Source: Janibacter anophelis NBRC 107843 (lineage in GTDB: Bacteria > Actinomycetota > Actinomycetes > Actinomycetales > Dermatophilaceae). From it: DNA of 64,000 nucleotides. Shown here one piece after another: positions 32,515-64,000 of this stretch. The first letter of the stretch is position 1. Each line of letters opens with the position of its first letter. The stretch is taken from NCBI RefSeq assembly GCF_001570945.1, contig NZ_BCSQ01000001.1:62001-126000 (forward strand), written 5' to 3'. The notes beneath the pieces are model-generated. The model did no database searches and had not been told where the DNA came from. It saw nothing but the letters and a program-made list of their open reading frames with translations. Made by a program: the position numbers and the translations under genes.

Positions 32515-33966
32515 TCAGACCGCGGGGAAGACCGGCGGGTGGACCTTGGCCATCTCCTCGAGGACGCGCACGACCTGGCAGGAGTAGCCGAACTCGTTGT
32601 CGTACCAGACGTACATGACGACGCGGTCGCCCGCGGTGATCGTCGCCCGGCCGTCGACGATGCCGGCGTGGCGGTTGCCGACGAAGTCGGTGGAGACGAC
32701 CTCGGGGCTGTCGATGTAGTCGAGCTGCTTGTGCAGGTCGCCGTACAGCGAGGCCTCGCGCAGGAAGTCGTTGAGCGCGTCCCGCTCGACGGCCTGCTCG
32801 AGGGTGAGGTTGAGGATGGCCATCGACACGTCGGGGGTGGGGACGCGCACCGAGTTGCCGGTCAGCTTGCCCTCGAGCTCGGGCAGCGCCTTGGAGACGG
32901 CCTTGGCCGCACCGGTCTCGGTGAGCACCATGTTGAGCGCGGCGGAGCGGCCACGGCGCTCGCCCTTGTGGAAGTTGTCGATGAGGTTCTGGTCGTTGGT
33001 GAAGGCGTGGACCGTCTCGATGTGGCCGCCGACGATGCCGTACTCGTCGTTGATGACCTTGAGCGCGGGCACGATCGCGTTGGTCGTGCACGACGCCGCG
33101 GTGACGACCTTGTCGTCGTCGCCGATCATCTCGTCGTTGATGCCGCTGACGATGTTGGGCAGACCACCCTTGCCCGGCGCGGTGAGCAGCACGCGGGAGA
33201 CGCCGGGGCACTGCAGGTGCTGCGACAGGCCCTCCTTGTCGCGCCACTTGCCGGTGTTGTCGACGACGATCGCGTCCTGGATGCCGTACTGGGTGTAGTC
33301 GACGCTCGACGGGTCGTCGGAGTAGATGACCTGGATGAGGGTGCCGTTGGCGAGGATCGTGTTGGCCTCCTCGTCGACGGTGATCGTGCCGTCGAAGGAG
33401 CCGTGGACCGAGTCGCGGCGCAGCAGGCTGGCGCGCTTGGACAGGTCGTTGTCGGCACCGCGGCGCACGACGATGGCGCGCAGGCGCAGCCCGTGGCCGG
33501 TGCCGGCGTGCTCGATGAGGATGCGGGCCAGCAGGCGGCCGATGCGACCGAAGCCGTAGAGCACGACGTCGGTGCTCGGCATGTCGTCGCCACCGTGCTT
33601 GCCGACGACGTCGGCGAGCTCGGCGCGCAGGAAGTCCTCGAGGGACTGGTCGGCGCCGGCCTCGAGGCGGCGGCGGTGCAGTCGCGCGATGTCGACGGAC
33701 GCCGGGCCCGGGTCCAGCGCGGTGAGTGCCTCGAGCATGGGCAGGGTGTCGTCGACGTTGAGCTCGATGTCGACCCGGCGGGCGAACCGGTGCGCCTTGA
33801 GGATGTCGGTCGAGGACTGCCCGAGGAGGGTGCGGCCGTGGACCGACGTCACGACGCCGAACTCGCGGTACAGGCGGCCCACCACGGGGATCATCGCCTC
33901 GGCCTTGGCCTGTCGGTCGGCCCACTCGGCCAGGTGCTCGTCTGCTGCGGTGCGCTGGGTCGTCAT
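32515..33966 (-). CDS. Glyceraldehyde-3-phosphate dehydrogenase, long form
   Basis: 483 residues, about 140 longer than ordinary GAPDH because of an N-terminal extension. The NAD(P)-binding motif VVLYGFGRIGRLLARIL begins near residue 134. The catalytic Cys293 is in AASCTTNAI, and the C-terminal WYDNEFGYSCQVV is canonical. It catalyses oxidative phosphorylation of glyceraldehyde-3-phosphate, or the reverse. The long-form enzymes are a recognised actinobacterial and proteobacterial subgroup with uncertain cofactor preference. It stands alone, flanked by a terminator and a type B repeat. Confidence 0.92.
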   Translation of the reverse strand: MTTQRTAADEHLAEWADRQAKAEAMIPVVGRLYREFGVVTSVHGRTLLGQSSTDILKAHRFARRVDIELNVDDTLPMLEALTALDPGPASVDIARLHRRRLEAGADQSLEDFLRAELADVVGKHGGDDMPSTDVVLYGFGRIGRLLARILIEHAGTGHGLRLRAIVVRRGADNDLSKRASLLRRDSVHGSFDGTITVDEEANTILANGTLIQVIYSDDPSSVDYTQYGIQDAIVVDNTGKWRDKEGLSQHLQCPGVSRVLLTAPGKGGLPNIVSGINDEMIGDDDKVVTAASCTTNAIVPALKVINDEYGIVGGHIETVHAFTNDQNLIDNFHKGERRGRSAALNMVLTETGAAKAVSKALPELEGKLTGNSVRVPTPDVSMAILNLTLEQAVERDALNDFLREASLYGDLHKQLDYIDSPEVVSTDFVGNRHAGIVDGRATITAGDRVVMYVWYDNEFGYSCQVVRVLEEMAKVHPPVFPAV

Positions 33967-34080: not shown

Positions 34081-34968
34081 TCAGGCGGTGGTGACCGTGT
34101 AGATCGCCTGCACCTTGGCGCCACCCGAGCAGGTGAGCCGGTGCGGCTGGCTCATCGTGCGCACGACGGAGCGAAGGGAGCTTCGCCCGCCCGCGTCGAC
34201 GCGCACCGTCCACGCGTCGTCACCGGTCGCCTCGACGTGGGGTGGCGCGATGTCGGGCAGCCGCACGTCGGGGTCACTGCCGAGCACGTCGTGCACCGCC
34301 GCCTGCGCGGCGGGGTGCCAGGAGCAGCGGCCACGCCACCGGTCGAGGTCGACCCGGCCGTCGAAGTGGTCGAGCACTACCTGGGCCGCGACGTCGCCGT
34401 CGAGCCGGCCGTACTGCGAACCCTCCGGCAGGAGGACGACATTGCCGGCGAAGCGGTCTCCGCCCAGGTGGGTCGTCTCCCACACCGCACCGGGCAGGGC
34501 GTCGTCGAGCACGGCGGCGACGACGCGTCCGTCGATGGCGCAGCAGACGTCCTTGCGGCCGTGCGTGCACACGAGCACCAGCGGCTCGCTCGTCGGGTCG
34601 GGTAGGTCGTCGAAGCGCGCTGCCAGCTCGACGAGGTCCTCTGGCCGCTGCCAGCTCGCCCGGCCGACGAGCCCGCGGCGGACGTCGACGAGGAAGACCG
34701 GCTCCCCGTCGGCCTCGACGAGCTCGCCCTCCAGCCGGCCGTGCCGCCGGATGAGCTGCAGGCGGGCACCGAAGCGGCCCATGGCGGCCGACAGCTCCTC
34801 CGCGACGTCGGCGATGCCAGCAGCCTCGATCGGCTTGGCCGGCCAGGGGCCCGGGTGGGCCACGACCATCCAGTAGCGGGCGGGCACGGCCGTGCCCACC
34901 GGGACGTCGCCGCGCGCGAGGGCGGCGAGCGAGCACCGGAACCGCTCGGTGTCGGGGGACGCGCTCAC
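34081..34968 (-). CDS. Sucrase/ferredoxin-like family protein (thioredoxin-like Fe-S fold)
   Basis: 295 residues. It has the family signature CTHGRKDVCCAIDGR followed by HLGGDRFAGNVVLLPEG, in which Cys and His residues are expected to ligate an iron-sulfur cluster in a thioredoxin-like ferredoxin fold. The true reaction of this family is unknown; the sucrase name is historical. A GTG start at 34968 lies 10 nt after the cupin stop. It is the last gene of the repeat-peptide / cupin / ferredoxin-like operon, which may mean it supplies electrons or iron handling to the oxygenase (inference). Confidence 0.85.
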   Translation of the reverse strand: MSASPDTERFRCSLAALARGDVPVGTAVPARYWMVVAHPGPWPAKPIEAAGIADVAEELSAAMGRFGARLQLIRRHGRLEGELVEADGEPVFLVDVRRGLVGRASWQRPEDLVELAARFDDLPDPTSEPLVLVCTHGRKDVCCAIDGRVVAAVLDDALPGAVWETTHLGGDRFAGNVVLLPEGSQYGRLDGDVAAQVVLDHFDGRVDLDRWRGRCSWHPAAQAAVHDVLGSDPDVRLPDIAPPHVEATGDDAWTVRVDAGGRSSLRSVVRTMSQPHRLTCSGGAKVQAIYTVTTA

Positions 34969-34978
34969 GCTCGCGACC

Positions 34979-36238
34979 CTACGCGGGCGGACGCGGAGCG
35001 GGGACCGCGACCCCGGCGACGACGAGCCGTCGGGTCAGCTGCGGGTCGAGCACGGCGGGCTCGTCGGCCGTGAGCCAGTCGGTCACGACCTCGGCCTCGC
35101 TCGGGTCGAGGGCCAGCCGCCCCGCGCGGCTGACGAGCAGCGCCCCCTCCGGGGACGGTTCGACCCGTGCCCTCAGGTGCGCCCGGGGCGCGACGGCCAG
35201 ACCCTCCGGCCCGTCGGCGAGCGACTCGACGGTCGCCACCGGCGAGATCGGCGCCGGTCGCTGGGCGGCGCGCGCCCGTGCGGCGAGCCGGTCGACCACC
35301 ACGGCCTCGTCGACGGCGGCGACCGCCTCGAGCAGGGCGGCGCGCACGGCCGCGAGGTCGTCGGCGAGGTCCGCGGGGTCCGCGACGTCCACGCCGGGGC
35401 GCAGGGAGGTGCGCTGGTCCGGGCGGGCGGCGACCGCCCTTCGTGCCTCGTCCAAGACGGCCTCGGCGAGGTGCCCGCGGTGCCACACGTGCACACCGAC
35501 GGTCAGGTGCGTGCTCACGCCGCCGAGCGCGGTGGCCGAGTGCAACCACCCACGGGGGATGTAGAGCACGTCGCCGGGGCGCAGGGTCACCTCGAGGTGC
35601 GCCTCGCCCTCGGCGGCCTCCGCGACGGCGTCGCGTCGGTCCTGCCACGGCTGGTCGCGAAGGGGGTCGACGTGGACCGGGCGGTGCAGGTGCCAGTGCT
35701 TGTCGCCGCCGGTCTGGAGGACGAAGACGTCGTGGACGTCGTAGTGCGCGGCGAACCCGCGGCTCTGCGGCGGGGTCACGTAGGCGTTGACCTGGACCGG
35801 GTGCCCGAGGTCGGCGGCCAGGTCCTGGGCGAAGCGGAGCACCGGCGGATGGGTGCGGTGCAGGCCCTGCAGGACGAGCGTGTGCCCGTCCGCGAAGAGT
35901 CGCAGCAGCGCGGTGTCGTCGAGCTGGTCGGTCACCCCCGCGCCGACCCCGCCGCCCCGGGTGAACTCACCGTCCGCGAGGGTCTGCCCGTCGCGTGCGA
36001 CGCGGAGGAAGGGGGCCCGCAGCCCGTGCAGGGAGAGGAGTTCGTCGACGGCCGCGGTGTCGAGCAGGTCGACAAACCCCGCACCCCGGGACATCGTGCC
36101 CTGCGGCCAGAGGGTCTGCGCCGGAACGTGCCGGGGCTCCCTGCCCCAGGCCGTGGCGAACTCCTGCGGCCCGAGGTCGGTGATGCGGCGGAGGCCGGTG
36201 CACCGCGGGGGTGCACCGGCCTCGTGGGGGTCGATCAC
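34979..36238 (-). CDS. JmjC/cupin-4 type 2-oxoglutarate-iron oxygenase
   Basis: 419 residues. The double-stranded beta-helix core has the iron ligands His165 and Asp167 in AAHYDVHD and the distal His233 in PRGWLHSA. The TGGDKHWHLHRP and LRPGDVLYIPRGW segments match the cupin-4/JmjC family that includes ribosomal protein hydroxylases (ROXA/YcfD). A C-terminal helical and winged region follows. The likely reaction is hydroxylation of a residue in a protein or peptide using 2-oxoglutarate. GTG follows the upstream stop directly (TGAGTG) with no good ribosome-binding site of its own, so translation probably depends on the repeat-peptide gene. That couples enzyme and probable substrate. Confidence 0.87.
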   Translation of the reverse strand: MIDPHEAGAPPRCTGLRRITDLGPQEFATAWGREPRHVPAQTLWPQGTMSRGAGFVDLLDTAAVDELLSLHGLRAPFLRVARDGQTLADGEFTRGGGVGAGVTDQLDDTALLRLFADGHTLVLQGLHRTHPPVLRFAQDLAADLGHPVQVNAYVTPPQSRGFAAHYDVHDVFVLQTGGDKHWHLHRPVHVDPLRDQPWQDRRDAVAEAAEGEAHLEVTLRPGDVLYIPRGWLHSATALGGVSTHLTVGVHVWHRGHLAEAVLDEARRAVAARPDQRTSLRPGVDVADPADLADDLAAVRAALLEAVAAVDEAVVVDRLAARARAAQRPAPISPVATVESLADGPEGLAVAPRAHLRARVEPSPEGALLVSRAGRLALDPSEAEVVTDWLTADEPAVLDPQLTRRLVVAGVAVPAPRPPA

Positions 36239-36589
36239 TCAGAGACCGCGCTCGGTCGGCGTCGCTCCGCCGTCCGCGCCACCGTCACCAGCGGCACCAT
36301 CGCCAGCAGCGCCGTCCGCGCCACCGTCACCGGCCGCGCCATCTCCGGCGGCACCGTCCGCGCCACCGTCACCGGCCGCGCCATCTCCGGCGGCACCGTC
36401 CGCGCCACCGTCACCAGCTGCACCATCGCCAGCGGCACCGTCCGCGCCACCGTCACCAGCGGCACCATCGCCAGCAGCGCCGTCCGCGCCACCGTCACCG
36501 GCTGCGCCATCGGACTGCGGGGCCCCGGTCGGCACGCCGCCGATGGCCTCCTCGGGCAGGTCTGGGGTCTCGTTCGGAGGCTGCGTCAT
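36239..36589 (-). CDS. Asp/Gly/Ala repeat protein upstream of the cupin oxygenase; candidate substrate peptide
   Basis: 116 residues. A 26-residue N-terminal segment (TPDLPEEAIGGVPTGAPQ) includes an acidic stretch followed by Gly-Gly, like double-glycine leaders of ribosomally made peptides. Six 14-residue repeats DGAAGDGGADGAAG follow, the last one diverging to GGATPTERGL. There is no Cys, signal peptide or membrane segment. AAGGAG lies 6 nt before the ATG at 36589, which supports this start over an ATG ten codons upstream. The stop abuts the cupin GTG. I do not recognise the family. The context suggests the aspartates or other repeat residues are hydroxylated by the cupin enzyme; this is an inference. 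Confidence 0.7.
   Translation of the reverse strand: MTQPPNETPDLPEEAIGGVPTGAPQSDGAAGDGGADGAAGDGAAGDGGADGAAGDGAAGDGGADGAAGDGAAGDGGADGAAGDGAAGDGGADGAAGDGAAGDGGADGGATPTERGL
36266..36511 (-). repeat. 42-nt tandem repeat array encoding the 14-residue units
   Basis: Five full units and one partial unit of 42 nt. The core GGTGACGGTGGCGCGGACGG is nearly invariant, while the other half of the unit exists in at least two versions that differ at many third positions yet encode the same amino acids (for example GCCGCCGGAGATGGC versus GCTGCTGGCGATGGT). Confidence 0.85.
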
Positions 36590-36737
36590 GTGCTTCTCCT
36601 TCTCGTGGGTGTGGGACACGACACGTGACCCGTACCCCCTTCCTAGCGGACGATGCCTCCCGGGGGAAGCCCTCGACGCCGTGGCTTGGCACGTCGTGAT
36701 GAAACACCTTGCGGCTCAAGCGGTTACTGTCGATCGC

Positions 36738-38033: not shown

Positions 38034-38068
38034 CCGGCCCACCCGCGCGACCGGGACCGCCAAGAAAC

Positions 38069-38178
38069 GCGCATCTCCCCGGGGAAATGCGCGCCGAGGG
38101 TCGCCAGAGCGCGCATCTCCCCGGGGAAATGCACGCCGAGGGTCGCCAGAGCGCGCATCTCCCCGGGGAAATGCGCGC
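38069..38178. repeat. Three tandem type B palindromes (42-bp period)
   Basis: GCGCATCTCCCCGGGG plus AAATGCGCGC starts at 38069, 38111 and 38153. The three copies are nearly identical and separated by CGAGGGTCGCCAGA. They lie between convergent genes ending at 38033 and 38190. The same palindrome occurs singly elsewhere in the window. Confidence 0.85.
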
Positions 38179-40703: not shown

Positions 40704-41450
40704 TCAGACCTCGTCGAGGAACTTCTCCAGGATCGCCGCGGTCTGCTTCGTGTCCTTGTTGACGGCGCTGAGGAGGTAGGTCGTCCCATCCTTTTCACCG
40801 GCGCACTGGGCGGTGCCGGAGGAGGTGCCGCAGGAGAGGTCGCCGACCTTTTCGCTGTCGTCCCAGATCGCCTCGTACTGGCTCGCCGTGACGACATCGC
40901 TCGCGATGACGCTGATGGCGTCCGTCCCCTTGGTGTAGGTCGCGGCGGACTGTCCGGCGACATCGGTCGTCGAGCCGGACTTCCACCCGTCGAACTCGTC
41001 GGGGAACGAGACGTCGCCACCTGCGGACGACGAGTCGCTCGTCGTCTCGGAGGTCGGCTCGCTCGTCTCGGACGTGGGCTCGCTCGTCTCGGACGTGGGC
41101 TCGCTCGTCTCGGACGTGGTCTGGCTCGTCTCCGAGGTCGTCGTCGACGACGACGTGGTCTCCTCGTCGTCACTGCCCCGGGTGAGGAAGAAGCCGCCGA
41201 TGCAGCACAGGAGCAGGACGAGGGCGAGGCCACCGGCGATGCCGAGGATCAGGCCCTTGCCGGGCCCCTTCTTCGGCGGCTGGCCGCCGGGGCCGGCCTG
41301 CCCCGGTCCGTAGCCACCGGGCGGCGGCCCGCCGGGACCCTGCCCTGTCTGACCGTAGGGGCCGGGCCCACCGTAGGGCGGCTGGCCGGAGGATCCGCCG
41401 GGGGGCGGCGGGACGTGTGGGCCGTTCGGACCCCCAGGTGGTGTGCTCAT
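40704..41450 (-). CDS. Membrane-anchored protein with Pro/Gly-rich head and TSETSEP repeats
   Basis: 248 residues. The cytoplasmic Pro/Gly/Tyr/Gln-rich N-terminus (about 65 residues) precedes one transmembrane helix (LILGIAGGLALVLLLCCIGGFFL). A Ser/Thr/Glu linker with repeated TSETSEP follows, and then an extracellular domain with a Cys pair (LSCGTSSGTAQC). The linker resembles cell-wall-spanning stalks. The end domain is paralogous to the lipoprotein at 39293. The ATG at 41450 is preferred to one six codons earlier. The function is unknown. Confidence 0.78.
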   Translation of the reverse strand: MSTPPGGPNGPHVPPPPGGSSGQPPYGGPGPYGQTGQGPGGPPPGGYGPGQAGPGGQPPKKGPGKGLILGIAGGLALVLLLCCIGGFFLTRGSDDEETTSSSTTTSETSQTTSETSEPTSETSEPTSETSEPTSETTSDSSSAGGDVSFPDEFDGWKSGSTTDVAGQSAATYTKGTDAISVIASDVVTASQYEAIWDDSEKVGDLSCGTSSGTAQCAGEKDGTTYLLSAVNKDTKQTAAILEKFLDEV

Positions 41451-51754: not shown

Positions 51755-52330
51755 TCAGGCCGGCGAGCCCGGCCACTCCTCGCGGAGGATCCCGTAGGTG
51801 TAGCCGTCGACCCACCCCCGCTCGGCGTGCCACGAGTCCTTGACGCCGTGCTGCTCGCGCCGCATCCCGATGCGCTCCATCACCCGCCACGACGGGGTGT
51901 TGTCGGCGAAACACCCGGCCGTCACCCGGTGCAGGCCCAACTCGTCGAAGGCGATGGACAGCAGTGCCCGGGCGAGGTGGGTGCCGTACCCGCGACCAGC
52001 GTGCTCGGGATCGATCGTGTACCCGAGGCTCCCCTGCGCCCGTCGCCAGATCGACTCGCCCGCGTGCACCTGGCCCATCGCGTCGGAGATGTTGAGCGAG
52101 CCGGTGCCGACGAGCTGGCCGTCGACATGGGCGGCGACGCCGACGCTGTCGGGGTCGTCCGCGAGCCAGGTGCGGGTGTAGGCGTCCGGGTCGACGGTCG
52201 TGCGCAGGAGCCACCGGGTGACCTCGGGACTGTTGCGCCACGTGAGGGCCTGCTCGATGTCCGCCTCGGTCGGAGGACGAAGGGAGAGAGGTCCCGATTC
52301 GCGCGGCCAGGTCAGGGGGTGCGTGGTCAC
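51755..52330 (-). CDS. GNAT acetyltransferase (RimJ/RimL-like)
   Basis: 191 residues. GPLSLRPPTEADIEQALTWRNSPEVTRWLL opens the domain. The acetyl-CoA loop is HAGRGYGTHLARALLSIAFDELGLHRV, and CFADNTPSWRVMERIGMRRE follows. The GTG at 52330 (VTTHPLTW) is chosen; an upstream in-frame ATG is possible. The substrate may be a ribosomal protein N-terminus, as in RimJ/RimL, or a small molecule. It is convergent with vapC, 41 bp away. Confidence 0.87.
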   Translation of the reverse strand: MTTHPLTWPRESGPLSLRPPTEADIEQALTWRNSPEVTRWLLRTTVDPDAYTRTWLADDPDSVGVAAHVDGQLVGTGSLNISDAMGQVHAGESIWRRAQGSLGYTIDPEHAGRGYGTHLARALLSIAFDELGLHRVTAGCFADNTPSWRVMERIGMRREQHGVKDSWHAERGWVDGYTYGILREEWPGSPA

Positions 52331-52381
52331 CCGGACGACACTATGGAGACGCACCTGTGGTGGGCCAGCGGATTTCGAGGG

Positions 52382-52786
52382 TCAGGCGCCGGCCCAGGAC
52401 CGCTCGACCAGCTCGCGCAGGACGGCCTCGTCGATGTCGGACATCCGCTTGACGTAGAGGCAGCCCTTGCCGGTCGTGTGCTTGCCCAGCCGCTTGAGCA
52501 GGTCCTCGTTGGAGCCGTAGAAGGTCAATCCGTAGAGGGTCAGCGCCGCCTTGCGCGGTGCCAGCCCGACCCGGAACCACTCGCGCTCCTTGCCGTCCGC
52601 GGTCGTGTACGGCTGGGTGCCGAAGCCGATCATCGACGGGCCCCACACCACGGGCTCGGCGCCGGTGACTTCGCGCATGAGCGCCAGGGCAGCCTGCGCG
52701 TCGGCCCGGCGACCCTCGTCCGGCACGGCCGCGAGCAGCTCGTCGGGCGACGCGGTGGTGGGGGCGGTCTTGCGGTCGGAGGCCAT
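52382..52786 (-). CDS. DUF1801 protein
   Basis: 134 residues of the DUF1801 group: RADAQAALALMREVTGAEPVVWGPSMIGFGTQPY, then FRVGLAPRKAALTLYG and GKGCLYVKRMSDIDEAVLRELV. The fold is like YdhG/YjbR-type small proteins; the function is unknown. It is divergent from the orphan toxin-like gene at 52875 by 88 bp. Confidence 0.85.
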   Translation of the reverse strand: MASDRKTAPTTASPDELLAAVPDEGRRADAQAALALMREVTGAEPVVWGPSMIGFGTQPYTTADGKEREWFRVGLAPRKAALTLYGLTFYGSNEDLLKRLGKHTTGKGCLYVKRMSDIDEAVLRELVERSWAGA

Positions 52787-52874
52787 GGGGCGAGCCTATG
52801 ACCATGCCCGACCGTTCACCGGGCGTCCTGAAAGTCTCATCCGTACACTCGAACGCGATACACGGGGGGATTAC

Positions 52875-53303
52875 ATGGTCGGAGTGAGTCATGGGGACGC
52901 GATCCAGGAACGCGAGAACACACTCGGACGTGATGCAGTGAAGGCGGCCAAGGACAGCGGCGCCAAGGGGCCGGTGACCTTCCCCATCAACACCAACTGG
53001 ACCGGGACCAACGCCAACGATTCGGACAACTGGAAGTACGCCACAAATGGTATGTCCCACAATGCCTCTGGCCACGTCACGGTCTACCCGCCCGACTCTC
53101 CCGGAGGGAAATGGCGGTATGAGATGGAGACGGAGGTTGCGTACCGCGACCGTTACAACTGGGACACCGGCAAGCAGATCCAGGTGAACGACGACATGGT
53201 GCAGGACGATGACATGGGGAGCCTGCATCGCGCCGGCCTGGCGAAGGAGTACACCCTGCACGGCGTCTCCTCGAAGCGTCAGAGCTCGGGGGTCGTCGGA
53301 TGA
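52875..53303 (+). CDS. Orphan polymorphic-toxin-like C-terminal domain protein
   Basis: 142 residues, no signal peptide. The second half (VAYRDRYNWDTGKQIQVNDDMVQ then LHRAGLAKEYTLHGVSS) resembles a domain found at the C-termini of large ESX/WXG-associated or Rhs-like polymorphic proteins in actinobacteria. Here it is free-standing. Base composition is noticeably lower in GC than its neighbours, consistent with transfer. GGGGGG precedes the ATG by 5 nt. It overlaps the lipoprotein gene as ATGA. The activity is unknown; the toxin-like reading is an inference. Confidence 0.65.
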   Translation: MVGVSHGDAIQERENTLGRDAVKAAKDSGAKGPVTFPINTNWTGTNANDSDNWKYATNGMSHNASGHVTVYPPDSPGGKWRYEMETEVAYRDRYNWDTGKQIQVNDDMVQDDDMGSLHRAGLAKEYTLHGVSSKRQSSGVVG

Positions 53304-53755
53304 GGCCGGGCGCTGCCGTGGCTGCAGCGCTCACACTCGCCCTCTCCGGGTGCGGGGGGTGGTCCGACCTGGGCGGGGGCGATCCACACACCCCACCCCC
53401 TTCGCCCTCCGCAGTTGACCCCGCCGATGTCGCCCGGAAGACGGGCACGCAACTCCCTACCAGCGCGGCCCATGTAACGGCCCTGCGCATTGACGACAAC
53501 CCCCTGACATACAGGGTGATGTTTGACGCGGACCCAGAGGCCGCGATGTCGTGGTGCCTCTCTCAGGACAACAGCCAGCAGGGTTCGTACGCCGGTCTGA
53601 CCGACGCAAAGAAGACCCTGTGGGGCATCGCCTCTGCCCCCGAGAACTCGCAGACCTGCTCGATGCCATCTCCAGACGGGATCTGGCAGATAGACACTCT
53701 GGTCTCCTCGGACGCGTCCGACCCAATACGTGTCGGCATGGTTCAGGTGCACTGA
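53300..53755 (+). CDS. Lipoprotein partner of the orphan toxin-like gene
   Basis: 151 residues. A lipoprotein signal with lipobox LALSGC (Cys18) is followed by a short Pro-rich linker and a domain of about 110 residues with two cysteines (SWCLSQDN and SQTCSMPSP). No family is recognised. Its ATG overlaps the upstream stop, and its GC content is also low. An overlapping toxin-like gene plus lipoprotein recalls envelope-located immunity proteins, but this is not shown. Confidence 0.65.
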   Translation: MRPGAAVAAALTLALSGCGGWSDLGGGDPHTPPPSPSAVDPADVARKTGTQLPTSAAHVTALRIDDNPLTYRVMFDADPEAAMSWCLSQDNSQQGSYAGLTDAKKTLWGIASAPENSQTCSMPSPDGIWQIDTLVSSDASDPIRVGMVQVH

Positions 53756-53805
53756 GGCGCGACGCGGCAGGCGCGTCAACAGGTGAGGCACACCTCTCAC
53801 CAGGC

Positions 53806-56800
53806 CTAGGCGCTCGCGGCCTCAGCGCGCCCATCCACCTCACGCAGGATCCCCACGATCGAGTCGACCTGCGCCTCCTCGAAGAGATCATCCGGACCGG
53901 TCGGCGCGTAGTCCGTGTACGGCGACTCGAAGAGCCGCCCCGGCTCGACCGCACCATTCGCCGTGAGCTCGTCGACGATGAGCGTCACGAACCGCACCTG
54001 ATGCACGTCGAACCGCGCCGTGTCGAGGTAGTCGCCAAAGGCCTCCAGCGCTGCCTCGCGATCCAGCCCGACCAGTGAGCGGACGAACCGCCCCAAGCCG
54101 TGCGACTCGTCGACCGCACGCTCGATGTCTGCGCGCGCGCCGGCCCCGCTGTCCTCGAGCATCTGCTCAAGCGCGGACAGGTCATCCGGTGTCAGCTGTC
54201 GGTTGCGCCGCAGTCGTTGTAGCGCCACATGGCTCTCGTGCTGACGCAGGTATGCGGCCGCCTTGGCGCGGAAGCGCTCCATGTCCGTACCCGGGGTCGT
54301 CCCGGGCAGCACGACCTCGGTCGACTCGCCGAGCTCGTCTGCGAAGTCGGTGTACACCGGGTTCCTCGTCGTCCGCTCGATGAGGCGCACGAGGTCGCGC
54401 ACCCGCAGCCGCGCCAGCTCGAGCATCGGCAGGGTGACGTCCACCCACCACTCGTCGCTCGCCAGCTCCTCGAGCATCTCCGTCTGAGCCGCGACGGACG
54501 GGATCGCCGTCTTACCGAGCAGCGCGACCGCGACCTCCTGGACCGTCTCGCGCAAACGCTCCGCGAGGACCAGGTCGCCGTCGAGCTGGGCGAGCTGTCG
54601 CCGGAGCATGACGAGGTCGAAGCGCTTGGCGGCCTCGTCGTCGTCGCGCACGGCCGAGGGGAGACCCGCCAGATGCGTCATGAGATCGGCCGCATCCTCG
54701 GTGGACAGCGAGTCCCAGGCAGACCGTTCGCCGTAGCGCTCGACCCACTCACGGTGCGGGCGGACGAGGAAGTTGTCGATGTTCATCCCCGCCACGACCT
54801 GGTGCAGCATGTCCGCAGCCGATGAGCGAAGGGGGGCATCCCCCTTCGTCTTGTCGAGTGCCGTGATCAGCCCGACGCGGCCCTCGAAGAGGCGCTGGGT
54901 CAGGGACTTCTGCACCGACCCCTCGGAGCCCGGCAGGTCCTGGCTGAAGAACTCGAGGTTGCCGCAGAAGTCGAAGACGAGGAAGTCCTGTTTGTCCTGC
55001 CCGGGGCCGAAGAGGTCCGGGCGCAGGCGCGTGCCCCGGCCGATCATCTGCCAGAACTTGCTCTTCGAGCGCACGACCTTGAAGAAGACGAGGTTGACCA
55101 CGTCGGGTACGTCGATGCCCGTGTCGAGCATGTCGACGGAGATCGCGATGTGCGGCGCCTTGTCGGGGTTGGAGAAGTCGTCGATGAGGTTCTGCGCGTA
55201 GGTCGTTCCGTGGGTGATCGTGCGGGCGAAGGCGCCGCCGTACTCGGGCCAGTGGATGTCGAAGCGCTCCTGGATGAAGTCGGCGTGAGCCTGGCTCTTG
55301 GCGAAGATGATCGTCTTGCCGAGTCGGTCCCCACCGGCGACCTTGTAGCCGTCCTCCATGAGGGTGGCGAGCACCTTGTCCACCGTGTCTTCGTTGAAGA
55401 GGAAGCGGTTGAGCTCCTCGGCGCCGACCTCGCTCGGTGCGCCGTCCTCGCCCCAGTCGAGCAGGTCCCACTGGTCCTTCTCGTCCTCGCTGAGCTCGTC
55501 GTAGCGGATGCCCTGGCGCAGGAACTTCGTGCCGACGGAGACCCCCTTCGGCGGGACGAGGTAGCCGTCAGCGACCGCCTCGTCGAGGCTGTAGGCGTCG
55601 GTCGGCACCCCGTCCTCGAGGTGGAAGAGCCGGTAGGTGTTGTGGTCGACCTCGTCCTTGGGCGTGGCGGTGAGCCCGACGAGGAGGCCGTCGAACCAGT
55701 CGAAGATCGCGCCGTACTTCTGGTAGACGGACCGGTGCGCCTCGTCGATGACGACGAGGTCGAAGTAGCCGGGCCCGAACTTCCGCTTCACAACACTCGG
55801 GTCGGCGTCGTCGGAGAGCTCGTTGATGAGGTTCATCATCGTCGGGTAGGTGGAGGCGTAGACGCGGCCGGAGCCGGTGCGGTTGGTGACGAGGTTGACC
55901 GTCGCGACGTCGGGCAGGTGCTCGGTGAAGGCGCGGGCGGCCTGGCCGACGAGCGCGGTGCGGTCGGCGAGGAAGAGCACGCGCTTGACCCAGTTGGCCT
56001 TCATCAGCTGGTCGACGAGACCGATGGTCATGCGGGTCTTGCCCGAGCCGGTCGCCATGACGAGCAGCGCCTCGCGCTGGCGCCGGTCGAAGGCGTCGCC
56101 CACCGCGGCGATGGCCTCCACCTGGTAGGGCCGACCGGCGATGTCGGTGTTGACGCTCTCGCCCCCGAGTGGGCGGCGCGTGGTCCGTCGCTGGATGAGC
56201 AACTCGAGCTCGTCGCGGGTGAGGAAGCCCTGGATTTCACGCGGCGGGTAGTCGCTGGCGTCGTCCCAGAGCCAGTGCTGCAGCCCGTTGGTGTAGAAGA
56301 TCACTGGCCGCCGACCGAACCGCGCCTCGAGCCGGTCGGCGTAGAGCTTGGCCTGCTGCTGCCCCACGCTCGGGGAGGTTGTCGTGCGCTTGGCCTCGAC
56401 GACGGCGAGGGGCAGTCCATCACTCCCCCACAGCACGTAGTCGACGTAGCCCGTGCCCGAGGCACTGGGCATGCCGCTGACCTCGTACTCGCGGTCCTGC
56501 GGATCGGCGAGAGGCCAGCCGGCCTCACCGAGGAGCAGGTCGATGAGGGTGCTGCGCGTCGTCGCCTCGTCGTAGTCGTGAGTATCGACCGTCTGCGACT
56601 TGGCGGCCTGGGCCGCGGCGATCTCGGCCTTGAGCCGCTCGATCTCGGCGTCCTTGGCAGCGGCGAGCTCGTCCTTGGCCGCGAGCGCCGCGGCGTGAGC
56701 CTCGTCGGCCGCCTTGATCTTGGCGGCGAGCTTGATGAGCTCGTCCCGCGACAGCGGGGCCGACTTCTGTGCGAGGTCCGGGTCGAACTGCGTGCCCATC

Positions 56801-57189
56801 GGCACGGCGTCCGGGCTGGTCGAGTAGCGGTAGGCGGCCCAGATGACGACGTGGTGCAGTTCGCGAAGGGAGGCCAGCGCGGCCTGCGTGGGGATGGGCT
56901 GGCTGTCGTGGACGGCCTTGTTGCCGAGGTTGCGGATGAGGTTGAGCTTCTGGGTGAAGGACGGCGAGGTCTTCGCCTTGAAGCCCGGGTCGTTGGTCCG
57001 CGCCGCGAGGTCGTCCTTGTACGGGACGGGCAGAGCCATGACGTCGTAGAGATGGTGGACGAGCGCCTCGGTGGCACGGCGGGCGTAGAAGCACGCGGTG
57101 CGCGGGTCGCTTGAGAGGTAGGACTCTGCGCGCACGCAGTCAGCGTGGATGTCGGGCCACTCGGTCTTGACGAAGGCGAAGTTGCTCAT
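53806..57189 (-). CDS. hsdR: Type I restriction enzyme R subunit with DUF4145 N-terminus
   Basis: 1127 residues. An N-terminal DUF4145-like helical domain (about 1-140) is followed by a coiled coil (about 155-205). A PD-(D/E)XK nuclease domain comes next, with VDYVLWGSDGLPLAVVEAKR supplying the Asp and Glu-x-Lys residues. Two RecA-like motor domains have Walker A MATGSGKTR, DEAH box VVIDEAHRS and LVGLTATP, and a C-terminal HsdM/S-binding helical region ends the protein. It translocates and cleaves unmethylated DNA in complex with HsdM and HsdS. The ATG overlaps the Fic stop as ATGA, so synthesis is coupled to Fic. A CGAAGGG/CCCTTCG inverted pair lies near 54830. Confidence 0.93.
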   Translation of the reverse strand: MSNFAFVKTEWPDIHADCVRAESYLSSDPRTACFYARRATEALVHHLYDVMALPVPYKDDLAARTNDPGFKAKTSPSFTQKLNLIRNLGNKAVHDSQPIPTQAALASLRELHHVVIWAAYRYSTSPDAVPMGTQFDPDLAQKSAPLSRDELIKLAAKIKAADEAHAAALAAKDELAAAKDAEIERLKAEIAAAQAAKSQTVDTHDYDEATTRSTLIDLLLGEAGWPLADPQDREYEVSGMPSASGTGYVDYVLWGSDGLPLAVVEAKRTTTSPSVGQQQAKLYADRLEARFGRRPVIFYTNGLQHWLWDDASDYPPREIQGFLTRDELELLIQRRTTRRPLGGESVNTDIAGRPYQVEAIAAVGDAFDRRQREALLVMATGSGKTRMTIGLVDQLMKANWVKRVLFLADRTALVGQAARAFTEHLPDVATVNLVTNRTGSGRVYASTYPTMMNLINELSDDADPSVVKRKFGPGYFDLVVIDEAHRSVYQKYGAIFDWFDGLLVGLTATPKDEVDHNTYRLFHLEDGVPTDAYSLDEAVADGYLVPPKGVSVGTKFLRQGIRYDELSEDEKDQWDLLDWGEDGAPSEVGAEELNRFLFNEDTVDKVLATLMEDGYKVAGGDRLGKTIIFAKSQAHADFIQERFDIHWPEYGGAFARTITHGTTYAQNLIDDFSNPDKAPHIAISVDMLDTGIDVPDVVNLVFFKVVRSKSKFWQMIGRGTRLRPDLFGPGQDKQDFLVFDFCGNLEFFSQDLPGSEGSVQKSLTQRLFEGRVGLITALDKTKGDAPLRSSAADMLHQVVAGMNIDNFLVRPHREWVERYGERSAWDSLSTEDAADLMTHLAGLPSAVRDDDEAAKRFDLVMLRRQLAQLDGDLVLAERLRETVQEVAVALLGKTAIPSVAAQTEMLEELASDEWWVDVTLPMLELARLRVRDLVRLIERTTRNPVYTDFADELGESTEVVLPGTTPGTDMERFRAKAAAYLRQHESHVALQRLRRNRQLTPDDLSALEQMLEDSGAGARADIERAVDESHGLGRFVRSLVGLDREAALEAFGDYLDTARFDVHQVRFVTLIVDELTANGAVEPGRLFESPYTDYAPTGPDDLFEEAQVDSIVGILREVDGRAEAASA

Positions 57190-58283
57190 CGGCTCCCCCG
57201 ATCGTTGAGCAGCAAGGTCAGGAACTCTCGGTTGATGAAGAGACGGTCGCGTCCGACCTTGTGGTCGTCGAGCAGCCCTGCACCGGCGAGGTCGGAGAGC
57301 CAGCGGGTGGCCGTGGGCCGCGAGACTCCGCATCGGTCGATGACCGTGGCGATCCGGCAGTAGGGCTGCTCGAAGAGGACGGCGAGGAACTCGGCGTCCG
57401 CTCCCCCCTTCGACACTGCTCGCGCACGATGTGCGAAGTCCGCCTGGAGGTCGCGGGTCGCGCTGATCGTGGCGACGGTGTCGGCGGACGTCTGCTCGAC
57501 TCCGGTGAGGATGTAGCAGATCCACTCCTCCCAGGCTGCATCACTGGTGACCGCACGCAGGAGCCGGTAGTAGTCGTCCTTGGTGTCGATGATGTAGCGG
57601 GAGAGATAGAGCAGGGGCAGGTGCAGCAGGCCCGCCTCGACGAGCATGAGCACGTTGAGGATCCGTCCGGTCCGCCCGTTGCCGTCGGCGAAGGGGTGGA
57701 TCGCCTCGAACTGGTAGTGCGCCGCCGCCATCCGCACGAGCGGGTCCATGCCGTCATCGGCGTGGACGAACCGCTCCCACTCGGTGAGCTTGTCCCGGAT
57801 GACGTCGGCGCCCTCCGGGGGGCTGTACACGATCGCGCCCGTCGCAGGGTTGGCGATGCGAGTCCCGGGCAGGGCCCTGATCGCCATCTCCCGTGCGTGG
57901 ATCATGCTGCACACGCTCTCGGCTGCGGCCACGGTCAGGCCTCGCTCGACCACGTGCTCGTGTCCGGCGTAGAGCGCACTCCGATATCTCAGGGTCTCGC
58001 GGACTGCGGGGTCCGAGGACGAGTCGTCATCCTCCATGTGTCTGAAGAGGTCGTCAGACGTGGTGACGACATTTTCTATCTCGGAGCTGGCCTGGGCCTC
58101 GAGCAACGGGATCGTGTTGATGAGGACATCAGGGTTGGGCATCGCCCGGCTGGCCTGGTCGAGCTGGGCAACGGCTGCGCGTGCGCCGATGGCTGCCTTC
58201 AGCACCGCCGTGGTCTCCAGCACCTCGGCAGAGGGCGGCGGGGGGAGCTCGTTGTAGGGCTTCTCTGCCCGCCATCTGCTCAT
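57186..58283 (-). CDS. Fic-domain AMP-transferase with C-terminal winged helix, coupled to hsdR
   Basis: 365 residues. The N-terminal inhibitory motif of class II Fic proteins, S-x-x-x-E-N, is seen in SSEIENVV. The active-site motif HPFADGNGRTGR starts at His196. A C-terminal winged helix-turn-helix (CRIATVIDRCGVSRPTATRWL) suggests DNA binding. Fic enzymes transfer AMP or related groups to target proteins. It starts a two-gene unit with hsdR, with a direct repeat and palindrome upstream (58281-58323) that it may bind. Its target could be the restriction complex, which is an inference. Confidence 0.88.
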   Translation of the reverse strand: MSRWRAEKPYNELPPPPSAEVLETTAVLKAAIGARAAVAQLDQASRAMPNPDVLINTIPLLEAQASSEIENVVTTSDDLFRHMEDDDSSSDPAVRETLRYRSALYAGHEHVVERGLTVAAAESVCSMIHAREMAIRALPGTRIANPATGAIVYSPPEGADVIRDKLTEWERFVHADDGMDPLVRMAAAHYQFEAIHPFADGNGRTGRILNVLMLVEAGLLHLPLLYLSRYIIDTKDDYYRLLRAVTSDAAWEEWICYILTGVEQTSADTVATISATRDLQADFAHRARAVSKGGADAEFLAVLFEQPYCRIATVIDRCGVSRPTATRWLSDLAGAGLLDDHKVGRDRLFINREFLTLLLNDRGSR

Positions 58284-58323
58284 GTCACAAAACCTGCCAT
58301 GTCACGTCGAACCTGTAAAGGTT
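58281..58323. promoter_or_regulatory. Direct repeats and palindrome upstream of fic-hsdR
   Basis: CATGTCAC-aa-AACCTG (58281-58296) recurs as CATGTCAC-gtcg-AACCTG (58298-58315). The second copy runs into the palindrome AACCT-GTAA-AGGTT (58310-58323). AT-rich DNA (to about 58345) follows. This is a likely operator/promoter for fic-hsdR in the 153-bp gap after the mrr-like gene. Confidence 0.55.
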
Positions 58324-58436
58324 TCCCCAAAACATTTACATATCGTCGTAGTCTCTGGCGGCCAACGACCGGCGGCGGTCTCGGCCTCGGCACCCACTGC
58401 AACATCCGTGGTGGGCGAACTGTTGCAGCAGAGCCC

Positions 58437-59345
58437 CTACTCGAAGAAGTCCTCATCCACCTCGACGATCTGCACCGTCTGCCACACCTGCACACCCACG
58501 CCGTACCTGATCATCAACGCCGCCATCCGCTCTCCGTCGACGAGCACGACCCGGGTGGCGACCCCTTCGGCGTAGGCGCGAGCGCCGGCGCTGAAGCGTC
58601 CGGTCGTGATGAAGACGCCCTGGTTGGCCGACTGCCCGTGCAGCGCCCCGACGAAGCCCTGGATCTCGGGCCGTCCGACGGAGCTGTCGAGCGCGTACCG
58701 CTTGGCCTGGACGTAGACCCGGCTCAGGCCGAGCGCGTCCTGGTCGATGATCCCGTCGATGCCGCCGTCGTTGGACAGCTGGGTGCGGGTGGCCCGCCCG
58801 TCGGCGCCGCCGTAGCCCATGGCGACGAGCAGGTCGAGCACGGCCTGCTCGAAGAAGGCGGGGTCGTTGGCGTGCAGTCGCCGCAACAGCTCGGCGGCGA
58901 CGTCGGCGTGGATGCGGGCGATGCCTTCCTCGACCTGCTCGGTCGGGTCGATCTCCGGCGATGACGTGATGACGGCGGACGTCGGCGCGTTATCGGTCGC
59001 CTTGGTCGTCCACCACGAGTCGCCCGGGCGGGCATACTGCCGCAGCTCGACCTCGGTGATGCCCTCCGGGTGGTCCGCGAGCAGGCGGACCCCCACGTCG
59101 GTGATGCGGTACTCGCCCCGCGCTCGACGCTCGAGGGCGCCGACGCGGTAGAGGTAGGAGACCGCCCACCCGATCCGGTTGTCCGCCTTGGGCGAGCCCG
59201 AAGGGAGGACCTGCTCGCGTTGCTCTTCGGTCAGCGACGCCTGCGCGACGTCCGTACGGATGGAGCGAAGGGAGTGGACCTCACCGTCCGCGAGGAGCTG
59301 GAGGACAGGGACCATGAAGCCGTCCCACGACGGGAGGGTGACCAT
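58437..59345 (-). CDS. Mrr-like restriction endonuclease
   Basis: 302 residues. The N-terminal Mrr-type winged-helix domain (about 1-95; SWDGFMVPVLQLLADGEVHSL.. and GWAVSYLYRVGALERRARGEYRITDVG) is followed by a restriction-endonuclease-like domain. Its catalytic pattern, Asp in GGIDGIIDQD and QAK in VYVQAKRY, is intact. The following RPEIQGFVGALHGQSANQGVFITTGRFSAGA is typical of Mrr_cat. Mrr enzymes cut methylated DNA. It sits inside a type I system, after hsdS, with TGATG coupling. Confidence 0.88.
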   Translation of the reverse strand: MVTLPSWDGFMVPVLQLLADGEVHSLRSIRTDVAQASLTEEQREQVLPSGSPKADNRIGWAVSYLYRVGALERRARGEYRITDVGVRLLADHPEGITEVELRQYARPGDSWWTTKATDNAPTSAVITSSPEIDPTEQVEEGIARIHADVAAELLRRLHANDPAFFEQAVLDLLVAMGYGGADGRATRTQLSNDGGIDGIIDQDALGLSRVYVQAKRYALDSSVGRPEIQGFVGALHGQSANQGVFITTGRFSAGARAYAEGVATRVVLVDGERMAALMIRYGVGVQVWQTVQIVEVDEDFFE

Positions 59346-60505
59346 CAGAGCTCGCCGGAGAAGGCGCGGGCTTGGAGGGAGGCAAAAAGTGCCTCGTCGG
59401 CAGCCTGCCCCTCTAACACAACGGTTCGAGCCTCGTCGATCTTGGCGAACTGACCCGCAGTCGCACGCTGCACTGCGAGGGGAGGAATAGCGACATGGAC
59501 CGACGCGAGAGACTTCTGATTTACCTTGTACGTTCCGTTCGTCGTGCGGGCCACCTGCTCGATCTGGCGCCGAACCGAGGGCTGCCTCCATGCCACTTCG
59601 AGGATTGGTGCGAGCACTCGCGCCGAATCGACTCGGCCAGCAATGACCGTATCCGGGAAGACAAGATCGAAGCGATCCTCCGGCACAAACACCCCGACGC
59701 CCACCAGACCGGGATTGCCGTTGCCGCGGCACATCAAGAAATCGATGGCAGCGACGCACTTGTCCTCTGGAGGCTCCGTCGCAAAATCCCCCTCCTTCGC
59801 TGCAGAAGGGTTGAACCTGCCACGAGTAATCGCCGAGAGAGTGAGCACCTTGGCTCGATGGGCACCACCCGATGACGGCGATAAGCCGTTGCGCATGTGG
59901 GGCATCAATTCATTGGCGGCTACTGACTCAGCCCCGTCGTCCTGCAAGGCAGACTGGAACACCGACTGAGTGAGGTCGTCGAGGTGGGCGAGGACCTGGC
60001 GGCGCTTGGCGCGGAGGGCGTCGGCGTGGTCGAGGATCGCCGCGATCCGCCGCTGTTCGTCCAGGGACGGCGTCGGCACCTGCAGTGATCGGAGATACTC
60101 CGGCGGAACGCGCCTCTGCCCACCGCTGCCAGTCATCCGCAGCTCACCAGTAGCTCTAACGCTCGGGAGCCTTAGAAAGTGCATGAGGTAACGCGGGTCG
60201 GCGCACTCCTTGGCCCTCACGACGTGGAATTCAGTTGAGCCCACGCCCACCTCGTGACCCAGGTGCGCCTGACCCACCTTCCCGTTCTCCCAGCACGGAG
60301 TAATCTTCGCGGCGAGAATGTCTTGGTCACGGAATACCGTGTACCCCTTGGATACGGCCCCAAAATGCACGGTTTCACGCGGCCGCGCCACCGCCCCCTG
60401 AGCGCTCAACTCAGCCATTCCCACGAAACTCACAGGTTCGTCGGCAGCAACCGACGCACCCCGCGGATTGATCTCCGCCAGGTCAGCTAGAGACTCCGTC
60501 CTCAC
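59345..60505 (-). CDS. hsdS: Type I restriction specificity subunit
   Basis: 386 residues with two target-recognition domains. The first ends at the conserved helix RSLQVPTPSLDEQRRIAAILDHADALRAKRRQVLAHLDDLTQSVF (about 136-180). The second is followed by VHVAIPPLAVQRATAGQFAKIDEAR. These helices set the spacing of the bipartite DNA target and bind HsdM. The GTG start overlaps the hsdM stop as GTGA. The second recognition domain is lower in GC than its neighbours, as usual for specificity genes that exchange domains. Confidence 0.92.
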   Translation of the reverse strand: MRTESLADLAEINPRGASVAADEPVSFVGMAELSAQGAVARPRETVHFGAVSKGYTVFRDQDILAAKITPCWENGKVGQAHLGHEVGVGSTEFHVVRAKECADPRYLMHFLRLPSVRATGELRMTGSGGQRRVPPEYLRSLQVPTPSLDEQRRIAAILDHADALRAKRRQVLAHLDDLTQSVFQSALQDDGAESVAANELMPHMRNGLSPSSGGAHRAKVLTLSAITRGRFNPSAAKEGDFATEPPEDKCVAAIDFLMCRGNGNPGLVGVGVFVPEDRFDLVFPDTVIAGRVDSARVLAPILEVAWRQPSVRRQIEQVARTTNGTYKVNQKSLASVHVAIPPLAVQRATAGQFAKIDEARTVVLEGQAADEALFASLQARAFSGEL

Positions 60506-62037
60506 GACAACATCGCCTTCAGCTCCTCGCGCGCCTGCGCGATCTCCAACTCGAGCGCCTCGATGTCCGTGATGATCTCCAGCGGCGGGCGGTGCTCGAC
60601 CTCGTCGTACTCGATTTCCTTGTACCGGTTGAGCGAGAGGTCGTAGTCCTGGGCGACGATCTCCCCCTTCGGAACGGTGAAGGACTGGTCCGTGCGGGCG
60701 CGGGAGAGCTCGGGCCAGGCTTCGAGGCTCGTACTTCGCTCCTCAGCCAACGTGGGGGCGGCTTCGAGGCTCGTTCCTCGCACCTCAGCCAGCGAGGGGC
60801 GGGTCCCCCAGCGTTCGAGGACGTCGGGGAGGTCGTTCGCCTCGACCGGGTTCCGCTTGTCGTCCAACGAGAAGCCATCGGCGCGCACGTCGTAGAACCA
60901 CACGTCATCGGTGCCGCCGGAGTTGGTCTTCGTGAAGAAGAGGATCGCGGTCGAGACGCCGGCGTAGGGCTTGAAGACGCCGGAGGGGAGCTTCACGACG
61001 GCGTCGAGCTTCTGCTCCTCGACGAGCATCTTGCGCAGGGCCTTGTGCGCCTTCGACGAGCCGAAGAGGACCCCGTCGGGGACGATGACCGCCGCCCGGC
61101 CACCGGGCTTGAGCAGCTTGAGGAAGAGCGCGAGGAAGAGCAGCTCGGTCTTCTTCGTCTTGACGACCTGCTGCAGGTCCTTGGACGTCGACTCGTAGTC
61201 GAGCGAGCCGGCGAAGGGCGGGTTCGCGAGGATCAGCGTGTACTTTTCCGAGTCGCCCCCGGCCTCCTCCGAGAGGGAGTCGCGGTACCGGATGTCGGGT
61301 GCCTCGATGCCGTGCATGAGCATGTTCATGCTGCCGATCCGGAGCATCGTCGAGTCGAAGTCGAAGCCGTGGAACATGCTGCGGTGGAAGTGGTCCCGCT
61401 GCTTGGTGTTCGTCAGAGCGCTCGGGTGGTTGTCGCGCACGTAGTCCGATGCCGCGACGAGGAATCCCGCTGTGCCACAGGCCGGGTCGCAGATCTCGTC
61501 CTCGGGCCCGGGGGCCGTCATCGCGACCATGAGGTCGATGATGTGCCGCGGCGTGCGGAACTGCCCGTTGGTGCCGGCGGATGCGATCTTCGAGAGCAGG
61601 TACTCGTAGAGGTCACCGTTGGTGTCCCGGTTGTCCATCGGGATGTCGGCGATGAGGTCGACGACCTTGGTCAACAGCGCCGCCGTGGGGATCGTGTAGC
61701 GCGCGTCCTTCATGTGATCGGAGTACGTCGAGCCCTCACCGCCGAGCTTCTGGAGGAAGGGGAAGACCTCCTGCGCCATCGTCTGGTGAGCCTGGGCGGC
61801 GTCGGCGTTCTTGAGGTGCTGCCACCGCAGGTGGCTCTGACCGGGTAGGAAGATCGGGTCCTCGATGGTGCCGGTGACGCGAGCGCGCTTCTCCTTGAGG
61901 GTCTGCAGCTCGTCTAGGCGGCGGATGAAGAGCAGGTAGGTGAACTGCTCGATCACCTCGAGCGGGTTGGAGATGCCACCGCTCCAGAAGGCATTCCAGA
62001 CGCTGTCGACCTTGCTCTTGAGCTCACCAGTGATCAC
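60502..62037 (-). CDS. hsdM: Type I restriction-modification methyltransferase subunit
   Basis: 511 residues. An N-terminal HsdM helical domain (KSKVDSVWNAFWSGGISNPLEVIEQFTYLLFIRRLDE) is followed by an N6-adenine methyltransferase domain with the SAM motif DPACGTAGFL and catalytic motif IV LANPPFAG. It modifies adenine at the site chosen by HsdS. The GTG at 62037 begins VITGELKSKV. At about residues 412-439 the frame runs through two tandem 42-bp interspersed repeats encoding PSLAEVRGTSLEAA and PTLAEERSTSLEAW, an unusual insertion near the C-terminal S-binding region. The rest of the gene is normal. Confidence 0.93.
   Translation of the reverse strand: MITGELKSKVDSVWNAFWSGGISNPLEVIEQFTYLLFIRRLDELQTLKEKRARVTGTIEDPIFLPGQSHLRWQHLKNADAAQAHQTMAQEVFPFLQKLGGEGSTYSDHMKDARYTIPTAALLTKVVDLIADIPMDNRDTNGDLYEYLLSKIASAGTNGQFRTPRHIIDLMVAMTAPGPEDEICDPACGTAGFLVAASDYVRDNHPSALTNTKQRDHFHRSMFHGFDFDSTMLRIGSMNMLMHGIEAPDIRYRDSLSEEAGGDSEKYTLILANPPFAGSLDYESTSKDLQQVVKTKKTELLFLALFLKLLKPGGRAAVIVPDGVLFGSSKAHKALRKMLVEEQKLDAVVKLPSGVFKPYAGVSTAILFFTKTNSGGTDDVWFYDVRADGFSLDDKRNPVEANDLPDVLERWGTRPSLAEVRGTSLEAAPTLAEERSTSLEAWPELSRARTDQSFTVPKGEIVAQDYDLSLNRYKEIEYDEVEHRPPLEIITDIEALELEIAQAREELKAMLS
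60720..60803. repeat. Two tandem interspersed repeats inside hsdM
   Basis: Copies at 60720-60761 and 60762-60803 have an exact 42-bp period. Each begins CTTCGAGGCTCGT and contains CCTCAGCCA, related to the REP copies at 46113 and 1943. Forty-two is a multiple of three, so the hsdM frame is kept. Confidence 0.8.
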
Positions 62038-62145
62038 GACGTCAGGGTATCTGCGGCTCGCTGACCGTTTGGCTGTCGGTGCGGCGTCATAGGTTGTCCG
62101 GCTGCGCTGCACCAGGTGGCGCTTCGAACCCGCAGGGGGTACGAC

Positions 62146-63057: not shown

Positions 63058-63073
63058 CTCGTCTCCGGCCACC

Positions 63074-63902: not shown

Positions 63903-63940
63903 CGCCCCATCCAAGACGAAGGGAGCCGCCCCGACCAGTG

Positions 63941-63990: not shown

Positions 63991-64000
63991 TTGGTGGGGA

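Follow-up and report, generated by a model that had tools for sequence, protein, structure and literature searches.

The JmjC/cupin-like oxygenases BipG and PbsQ hydroxylate ornithine of the precursors of ribosomally synthesized and post-translationally modified peptides (RiPPs) in biphenomycin-type pathways, as reported in two articles (PMC12707348, PMC12257519). A further article describes PF08007 proteins of fish and algae that carry a fused RRE-like domain, and mentions bacterial PF08007 homologues of about 30% identity in RiPP-like contexts (PMC12710340). β-Hydroxylation of Asp is also known in RiPPs, where other enzymes are reported to carry it out (PMC13060819, PMC12636437). Here we analyse three adjacent genes of Janibacter anophelis NBRC 107843, found in a stretch of 64,000 nucleotides (contig NZ_BCSQ01000001.1, positions 62,001 to 126,000; hereafter the window, to which all coordinates refer), which code for an Asp-rich repeat peptide, a JmjC_2 oxygenase and a ferredoxin.

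The locus has in common with the BipG and PbsQ pathways and with the PF08007 proteins in RiPP-like contexts a JmjC/cupin-like oxygenase with a small precursor; with BipG and PbsQ it would also share the hydroxylation of peptide side chains, which is proposed here. It differs from these pathways by its precursor, a long Asp repeat, by its ferredoxin partner and by the absence of any recurring radical SAM enzyme, MNIO, arginase, protease or exporter among the 20 stretches of related loci surveyed below. β-Hydroxy-Asp in a ribosomal peptide, here only a proposed product, is described for the MNIO PesH/PflD and the 2OG-HExxH enzymes (2OG, 2-oxoglutarate; PMC13060819, PMC12636437). In these systems and that of CinX the sites are less numerous than the Asp of the cores found here (median 12 per core). 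CinX of cinnamycin is a RiPP Asp β-hydroxylase, and all these enzymes belong to families other than JmjC_2. The original prediction knew of no described system with this exact trio. No description of it was found in the literature searched, that of PMC, outside which most subscription papers lie, and the peptide repeat strings gave no relevant paper in PMC full text with the same limit (one unrelated pig paper). JmjC proteins in RiPP-like contexts are, however, already in print, and the Asp-repeat trio is a variant of them for which no description was found.

We privilege the hypothesis, which we consider somewhat more probable than its rivals together, of a three-gene RiPP-like module whose oxygenase hydroxylates Asp along the repeats while the ferredoxin supplies electrons. 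The first gene would encode a precursor in which a short acidic leader precedes an Asp-repeat core spaced mostly by Gly, Ala, Ser, Thr and Pro. The Fe(II)/2-oxoglutarate oxygenase of JmjC_2/ROX type (ROX, ribosomal oxygenase), translated next, would bind the precursor, perhaps via its C-terminal winged-helix domain, and hydroxylate Asp side chains along the repeats to yield a peptide with many β-hydroxy-Asp. Electrons from the ferredoxin would keep the oxygenase iron as Fe(II), or return it to this state, over many turnovers. The data below document the order and conservation of the genes, the residues of the active site and the predicted folds, the reaction itself being a proposal.

The repeat peptide and its pairing with the oxygenase

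The three genes lie on the minus strand. The peptide gene (36239-36589) starts with ATG, codes for 116 residues of the proposed precursor and is preceded by a Shine-Dalgarno region, AAGGAGAAG (36590-36602, minus strand, read from the sequence); AAGGAG is kept upstream of this gene in the 12 Janibacter upstream regions aligned. The GTG of the 419-residue oxygenase (34979-36238; PF08007, Pfam E 1.4e-26) abuts the peptide TGA with a gap of 0 nt, and 10 nt separate the oxygenase from the gene of the 295-residue thioredoxin-like ferredoxin (34081-34968; Suc_Fer-like, PF06999, Pfam E 3.4e-18). The ORF (open reading frame) coordinates thus bear out the adjacency, strand and tight coupling that had been predicted.

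Homologues were sought in 39 relatives and in 297 genomes of the order, 394 of the class and 296 of the phylum, in draws that overlap. The class set gathers the oxygenases of at least 230 bits against a 21-sequence profile from the relatives, order and class searches, after removal of L021-L027 (fragments and named duplicates) and of rows sharing the last 120 matched residues. Four of its 123 loci are cut at a contig end, which leaves 119 with readable upstream DNA. An Asp-rich small-residue peptide is encoded directly upstream of the oxygenase in 112/119 of these by the strict test (small-residue cut 0.70) and in 115/119 by a wider one (0.65, with a gap to -160 nt), which gains L036, L077 and L135. 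The loci devoid of it are L016, L018, L138 and L139, the last two being the most distant of the set; in L051 and L053 the Asp-rich peptides are acidic and barely repetitive. Outside the class, 20 of the 21 new loci of the phylum search were retained (G858 was left out), and 18 of them carry the peptide upstream by the same tests. All 20 do so by eye, since Asp-rich peptides are visible in the two that fail, L203 (Arg-bearing) and L212. Pooling all readable loci gives 133/139 by test and 135/139 by eye, to be compared with one of 260 GC3-selected non-oxygenase genes (GC3, GC at third codon positions) from the window and the 20 stretches of 11.5-17 kb, by the strict and the wide test alike. The peptide stop falls -20 to +36 nt from the oxygenase start in 56 of the 59 loci with a scored gap, most commonly at 0 nt (16 loci) or -4 nt (14 loci).

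The original prediction would have been contradicted by a majority of oxygenase relatives lacking a repeat peptide nearby; the check was run and the peptide stands upstream in 133/139 loci, which favours one of the identities then put forward, a new ribosomal peptide family. The counts support a pair made of enzyme and peptide, with a small putative precursor gene beside the enzyme as in RiPP systems, the modification of the peptide by that enzyme being what we infer. The oxygenase is present in all 16 Janibacter genomes searched, the source genome included, in 53/297 genomes of the order (E 1e-3) and in 32/296 of the phylum (E 1e-70), and its spread across the phylum indicates that its function is no local oddity. 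On a 140-row tree (FastTree only, with a long-branch warning) presence of the Asp peptide requires 5 changes.

The window peptide is made of 19 Asp, 40 Gly and 31 Ala among its 116 residues. A proposed leader (residues 1-26; 36512-36589, minus strand) contains LPEEAI, the local form of a family motif, and is followed by five exact copies of the 14-residue unit DGAAGDGGADGAAG (residues 27-96; 36302-36511, minus strand) and by a diverged one, DGAAGDGGADGGAT (36260-36301, minus strand), so that of the six repeats announced by the prediction five are exact and the sixth is altered. Pairwise comparison of the six units gives 87 nucleotide differences, 72 of them at third codon positions; the remaining 15 each involve the altered sixth unit. 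Since the differences are mostly of third-position type, the repeats are maintained as protein and not merely as DNA. The repeat pattern has 12 matches in the source genome, 11 of which fall at the peptide locus. The peptide has no match in NCBIfam, Pfam or PADLOC, and neither have those of its relatives that were compared, five with Pfam and seven with NCBIfam.

These data bear on the simplest alternative, that a GC-rich repeat and an oxygenase are neighbours by chance. Other short arrays do exist in the window, but 133/139 loci against 1/260 other genes, five exact units that differ at third codon positions only, and an oxygenase identity of 45-81% within most of the class set, which contradicts one recent copy, lead us to hold it refuted by the conservation counts.

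The leader motif lies near the N-terminus and is of the type LSDDDITT or LTDEDIET, LPEEAIGG in Janibacter. Scored as [LVI]x[DE][DESAQ][DESATQ][IVM], it is found in 77/135 peptides, while 500 shuffles give 1.1 on average and 6 at most. Six starts (L047, L052, L092, L207, L209, L212) were set by hand, partly with knowledge of the motif, which raised the count from 74 to 77; outside the class it is present in 20/20 peptides (17/20 before the hand-set starts). The leader ending in Gly-Gly that had been predicted is real in Janibacter and also in L028 and L029, both closely related, but it is not general: the same position reads, for example, DDDITT or DEDIET at other loci, or the motif is absent.

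Ala, Asp and Gly are the only residues present in all 135 cores, which makes Asp the sole reactive side chain that is always available. Cys and Trp never occur; Phe is found in 1 core, Tyr in 2, Ile in 7, Lys in 12 and Leu in 22. The Asp number ranges from 4 to 29 per core, and Gly follows Asp in 1176 of 1850 cases. The styles of core are diverse: DGGADGGA with GPADGGAxGxPGxHDGGADGGA units, DPAGSDPAG, DGTDGD or DADAAD. A peptide of different composition, with repeats around GGTYGPRDA and ADGTDQGV, is encoded at L198, where no ferredoxin was found adjoining.

That the repeat peptide is the substrate of the oxygenase is very likely, and Asp is the probable modified residue. The suggestion that the Asp-rich repeats are a natural substrate is well supported by the constancy of Asp in the cores, the target itself being a prediction. 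The oxygenase could also carry out a different reaction at Asp or at the backbone of its neighbour peptide: it might cross-link or macrocyclise the peptide, decarboxylate it oxidatively or cleave its backbone. An α-ketoglutarate dioxygenase that macrocyclises RiPPs has reportedly been described by Xia et al. in 2025. Backbone cleavage by a HEXXH 2OG enzyme is reported in PMC12636437, and a reaction other than plain hydroxylation might be what the ferredoxin is there for. However, of the usual partners of cross-links Cys and Trp are absent from all 135 cores, and Phe, Tyr and Lys are found in the 1, 2 and 12 cores given above. The length variation of the peptide, 74-131 residues across 12 Janibacter loci, suits a simple repeated modification, so that we deem such a chemistry unlikely.

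The oxygenase and its relation to ribosomal oxygenases

The oxygenase is ROX-like (NO66/MINA53). Its AlphaFold2 model has a pLDDT of 90.6 and its best PDB matches are NO66, then Rhodothermus YcfD, MINA53 and E. coli YcfD; the ROX matches extend over most of its length with a TM-score on the query of 0.40-0.62 and an identity of 16-24%, and a sequence profile finds NO66 at 4e-40. Its JmjC_2 domain, matched in Pfam, keeps the HxD...H iron site. The predicted ligands His165 (35744-35746), Asp167 (35738-35740) and His233 (35540-35542, all minus strand) are indeed retained in the window protein and in all 135 aligned oxygenases. They are invariant, together with Asn151, Tyr153 and Lys180, in the 135 close and in 20/20 distant sequences; some of the latter three presumably bind 2-oxoglutarate, as in ROX structures.

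The ribosomal oxygenases NO66, MINA53 and YcfD thus resemble these proteins in fold and in iron-site residues, and differ from them by having no dedicated peptide gene like that found here beside the oxygenase. NO66 lacks the Arg74 region in the profile alignment, whereas this region is kept in the present oxygenases. Arg74 is found in 134/135 of them, with Glu at the same site in 13/20 distant JmjC proteins; Arg352 is found in 130/135, whereas Arg does not rank among the four most frequent residues at that site in the distant sequences. Both Arg are candidates for holding an Asp-rich substrate. The C-terminal domain (about residues 345-419; 34979-35206, minus strand), with four strands and two helices in the model, is winged-helix-like and could possibly bind the leader.

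The likeness in sequence and fold over most of the protein, and the single PF08007 match in the source genome, would also agree with a ribosomal oxygenase of the YcfD/NO66/MINA53 kind that the peptide regulates, inhibits or diverts as a decoy, without being its substrate. A coupled peptide of fixed composition, Asp and small residues, and of drifting order fits a substrate better, and many genomes manage without the oxygenase, 244/297 in the order having no match at E 1e-3. A third point against comes from the distant JmjC_2 proteins, of which 23 were sampled from a larger number of matches below 230 bits: none has an Asp-rich peptide by the strict test or a ferredoxin, but 13/23 too have a short upstream peptide bearing Asp (by eye). 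We therefore judge this reading quite improbable.

The short peptides of these 13 distant genes have Asp-Gly or Asp-Pro close to the C-terminus (by eye). Upstream of eight distant JmjC_2 genes (L143-L145, L148, L150-L152, L154) the short non-repetitive peptides are similar to one another, one of them ending in SRDITAGGDSDGTDSSSDFI (by eye), and look like a second precursor family.

The ferredoxin and the case against the proposed module

The ferredoxin model has a pLDDT of 88.6 and its best PDB matches are Aquifex thioredoxin-like ferredoxin (TLF) and Azotobacter FeSI (Foldseek E 0.009-0.014, probability 1.00), so that a Suc_Fer-like profile and a TLF fold come together in this protein. It shares the fold with Aquifex TLF and with yeast Aim32 and Apd1, and its conserved residues Cys134-x8-Cys143 and His167-x3-Asp171 resemble CX8CXnHX3H, the Aim32 motif given in a section title of PMC8482512. 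The second His of this ligand set is Asp171 here, in 13/13 aligned sequences; a regular expression finds Asp at that position in 91/100, the other 9 being unmatched. A [2Fe-2S] cluster is the one we would expect in this ferredoxin, which, unlike Aim32/Apd1 and TLF, is encoded beside an oxygenase and a repeat peptide.

The ferredoxin gene directly follows the oxygenase in 100/120 class-set loci and is adjacent in 18/19 readable loci outside the class, one of them by a weak 21-bit match only. Of 18 searched genomes with the oxygenase and no adjacent ferredoxin, those of L138 and L139 having been left out, 15 hold a ferredoxin elsewhere; in four of the 15, from one genus, it is about 11-23 kb away on the same contig. 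Ferredoxin presence requires 10 changes on the same 140-row tree, subject to the same warning. The association is strong but not strict, because of the loci where the ferredoxin is distant or absent and of those where it occurs without oxygenase (see below). We assign it only tentatively the role of electron supplier to the oxygenase. The idea of a ferredoxin dose adjusted to the number of Asp was rejected, this number being no different with or without an adjacent ferredoxin.

Several observations weigh against the module as we propose it. Twenty of the 120 loci have no adjacent ferredoxin, 3 of the 18 oxygenase genomes searched have none anywhere, and 7/21 genomes without oxygenase do have one, all within the window's own family. 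The Asp number per core does not differ between loci that have the adjacent ferredoxin (median 13) and loci that do not (median 12; p 0.56), and 2OG oxygenases work without external ferredoxin. On the peptide side, 58/135 peptides have no leader motif, the Janibacter locus L016 has oxygenase and ferredoxin without such a peptide, and the peptides of the 13/23 distant JmjC_2 loci are not repeats, which indicates that repeats are not required in the wider family. In the titles of their structures NO66, MINA53 and YcfD, the closest relatives with a solved structure, are called hydroxylases of His or Arg in ribosomal proteins, not of Asp. Finally, we know of no oxygenase activity or peptide mass shift on record.

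Neighbouring genes, export and significance of the gene set

The neighbourhood was surveyed in 20 diverse stretches of 11.5-17 kb for ORFs 90 residues long or longer. Apart from two clusters (13 and 10 loci) that overlap the oxygenase on the opposite strand and were taken as shadows, only two families occur in more than 4 of the stretches, the oxygenase in 20 and the ferredoxin in 16. Two families are found in 4/20 stretches each at scattered positions, one being ABC-ATPase-like. No recurring protease, exporter or regulator appears among these stretches. Nor is there a sign of C39-type double-glycine export, Gly-Gly being limited to Janibacter, L028 and L029 and the ABC-ATPase-like family being scattered. 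A run of five hydrophobic residues is absent from all 135 peptides, a crude test which suggests that they have no classical signal peptide. The surface polymer considered in the original prediction is consequently unsupported, since the peptides lack such a run and the 20 stretches show neither an exporter nor a protease conserved in position.

Scans of 133 upstream regions with IdeR/DtxR and Fur consensus sequences gave mean scores of 10.1 and 8.7, shuffled sequences giving 10.2 and 8.6. Only in L012 and L126 does the IdeR score, at most 13, exceed by one point the highest value of the shuffled sequences, 12, and iron control of the operon was rejected. Anti-phage defence was likewise set aside, PADLOC giving no match for the three proteins, as was a mobile element: the 129 plasmid records with a match stay below 60% identity and 80% query coverage throughout, and 2 phage records match weakly.

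Directly downstream of the ferredoxin gene, on the same strand, lies a gene for a long-form glyceraldehyde-3-phosphate dehydrogenase (PRK08289 type, 32515-33966), and a similar dehydrogenase-like ORF follows the ferredoxin in L002, L003, L006 and L013. Elsewhere in the window, 38068-38178 is a tandem array of 42-nt units with 97% matches and an inverted repeat per unit (by eye), and 41037-41132 is a 21-nt array coding for Ser/Glu/Pro/Thr repeats within an ORF that probably also encodes a membrane segment (by eye). The GC content is 0.65-0.69 over 52001-64000 and 0.70-0.77 in the remainder.

Metal binding by the peptide would be chemically attractive, though no clear IdeR or Fur site was found. 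In its widest form our proposal would make of these loci a phylum-wide class of ribosomal, multiply β-hydroxylated poly-aspartyl polyanions that bind metal or iron inside the cell, the product of a JmjC oxygenase whose dedicated ferredoxin maintains its activity; we regard this extension as rather doubtful. What many actinobacteria have is a gene set of an Asp/Gly/Ala repeat peptide and an oxygenase, usually with an iron-sulfur partner. Ribosomal proteins are the known targets of ROX-type JmjC oxygenases, and here a large bacterial branch of these enzymes has its likely substrate named by the neighbourhood. If the proposed reaction is true, it would be a new ribosomal route to runs of β-hydroxy-Asp, a good metal ligand, and would give an orphan ferredoxin family a testable role as partners of 2OG oxygenases.

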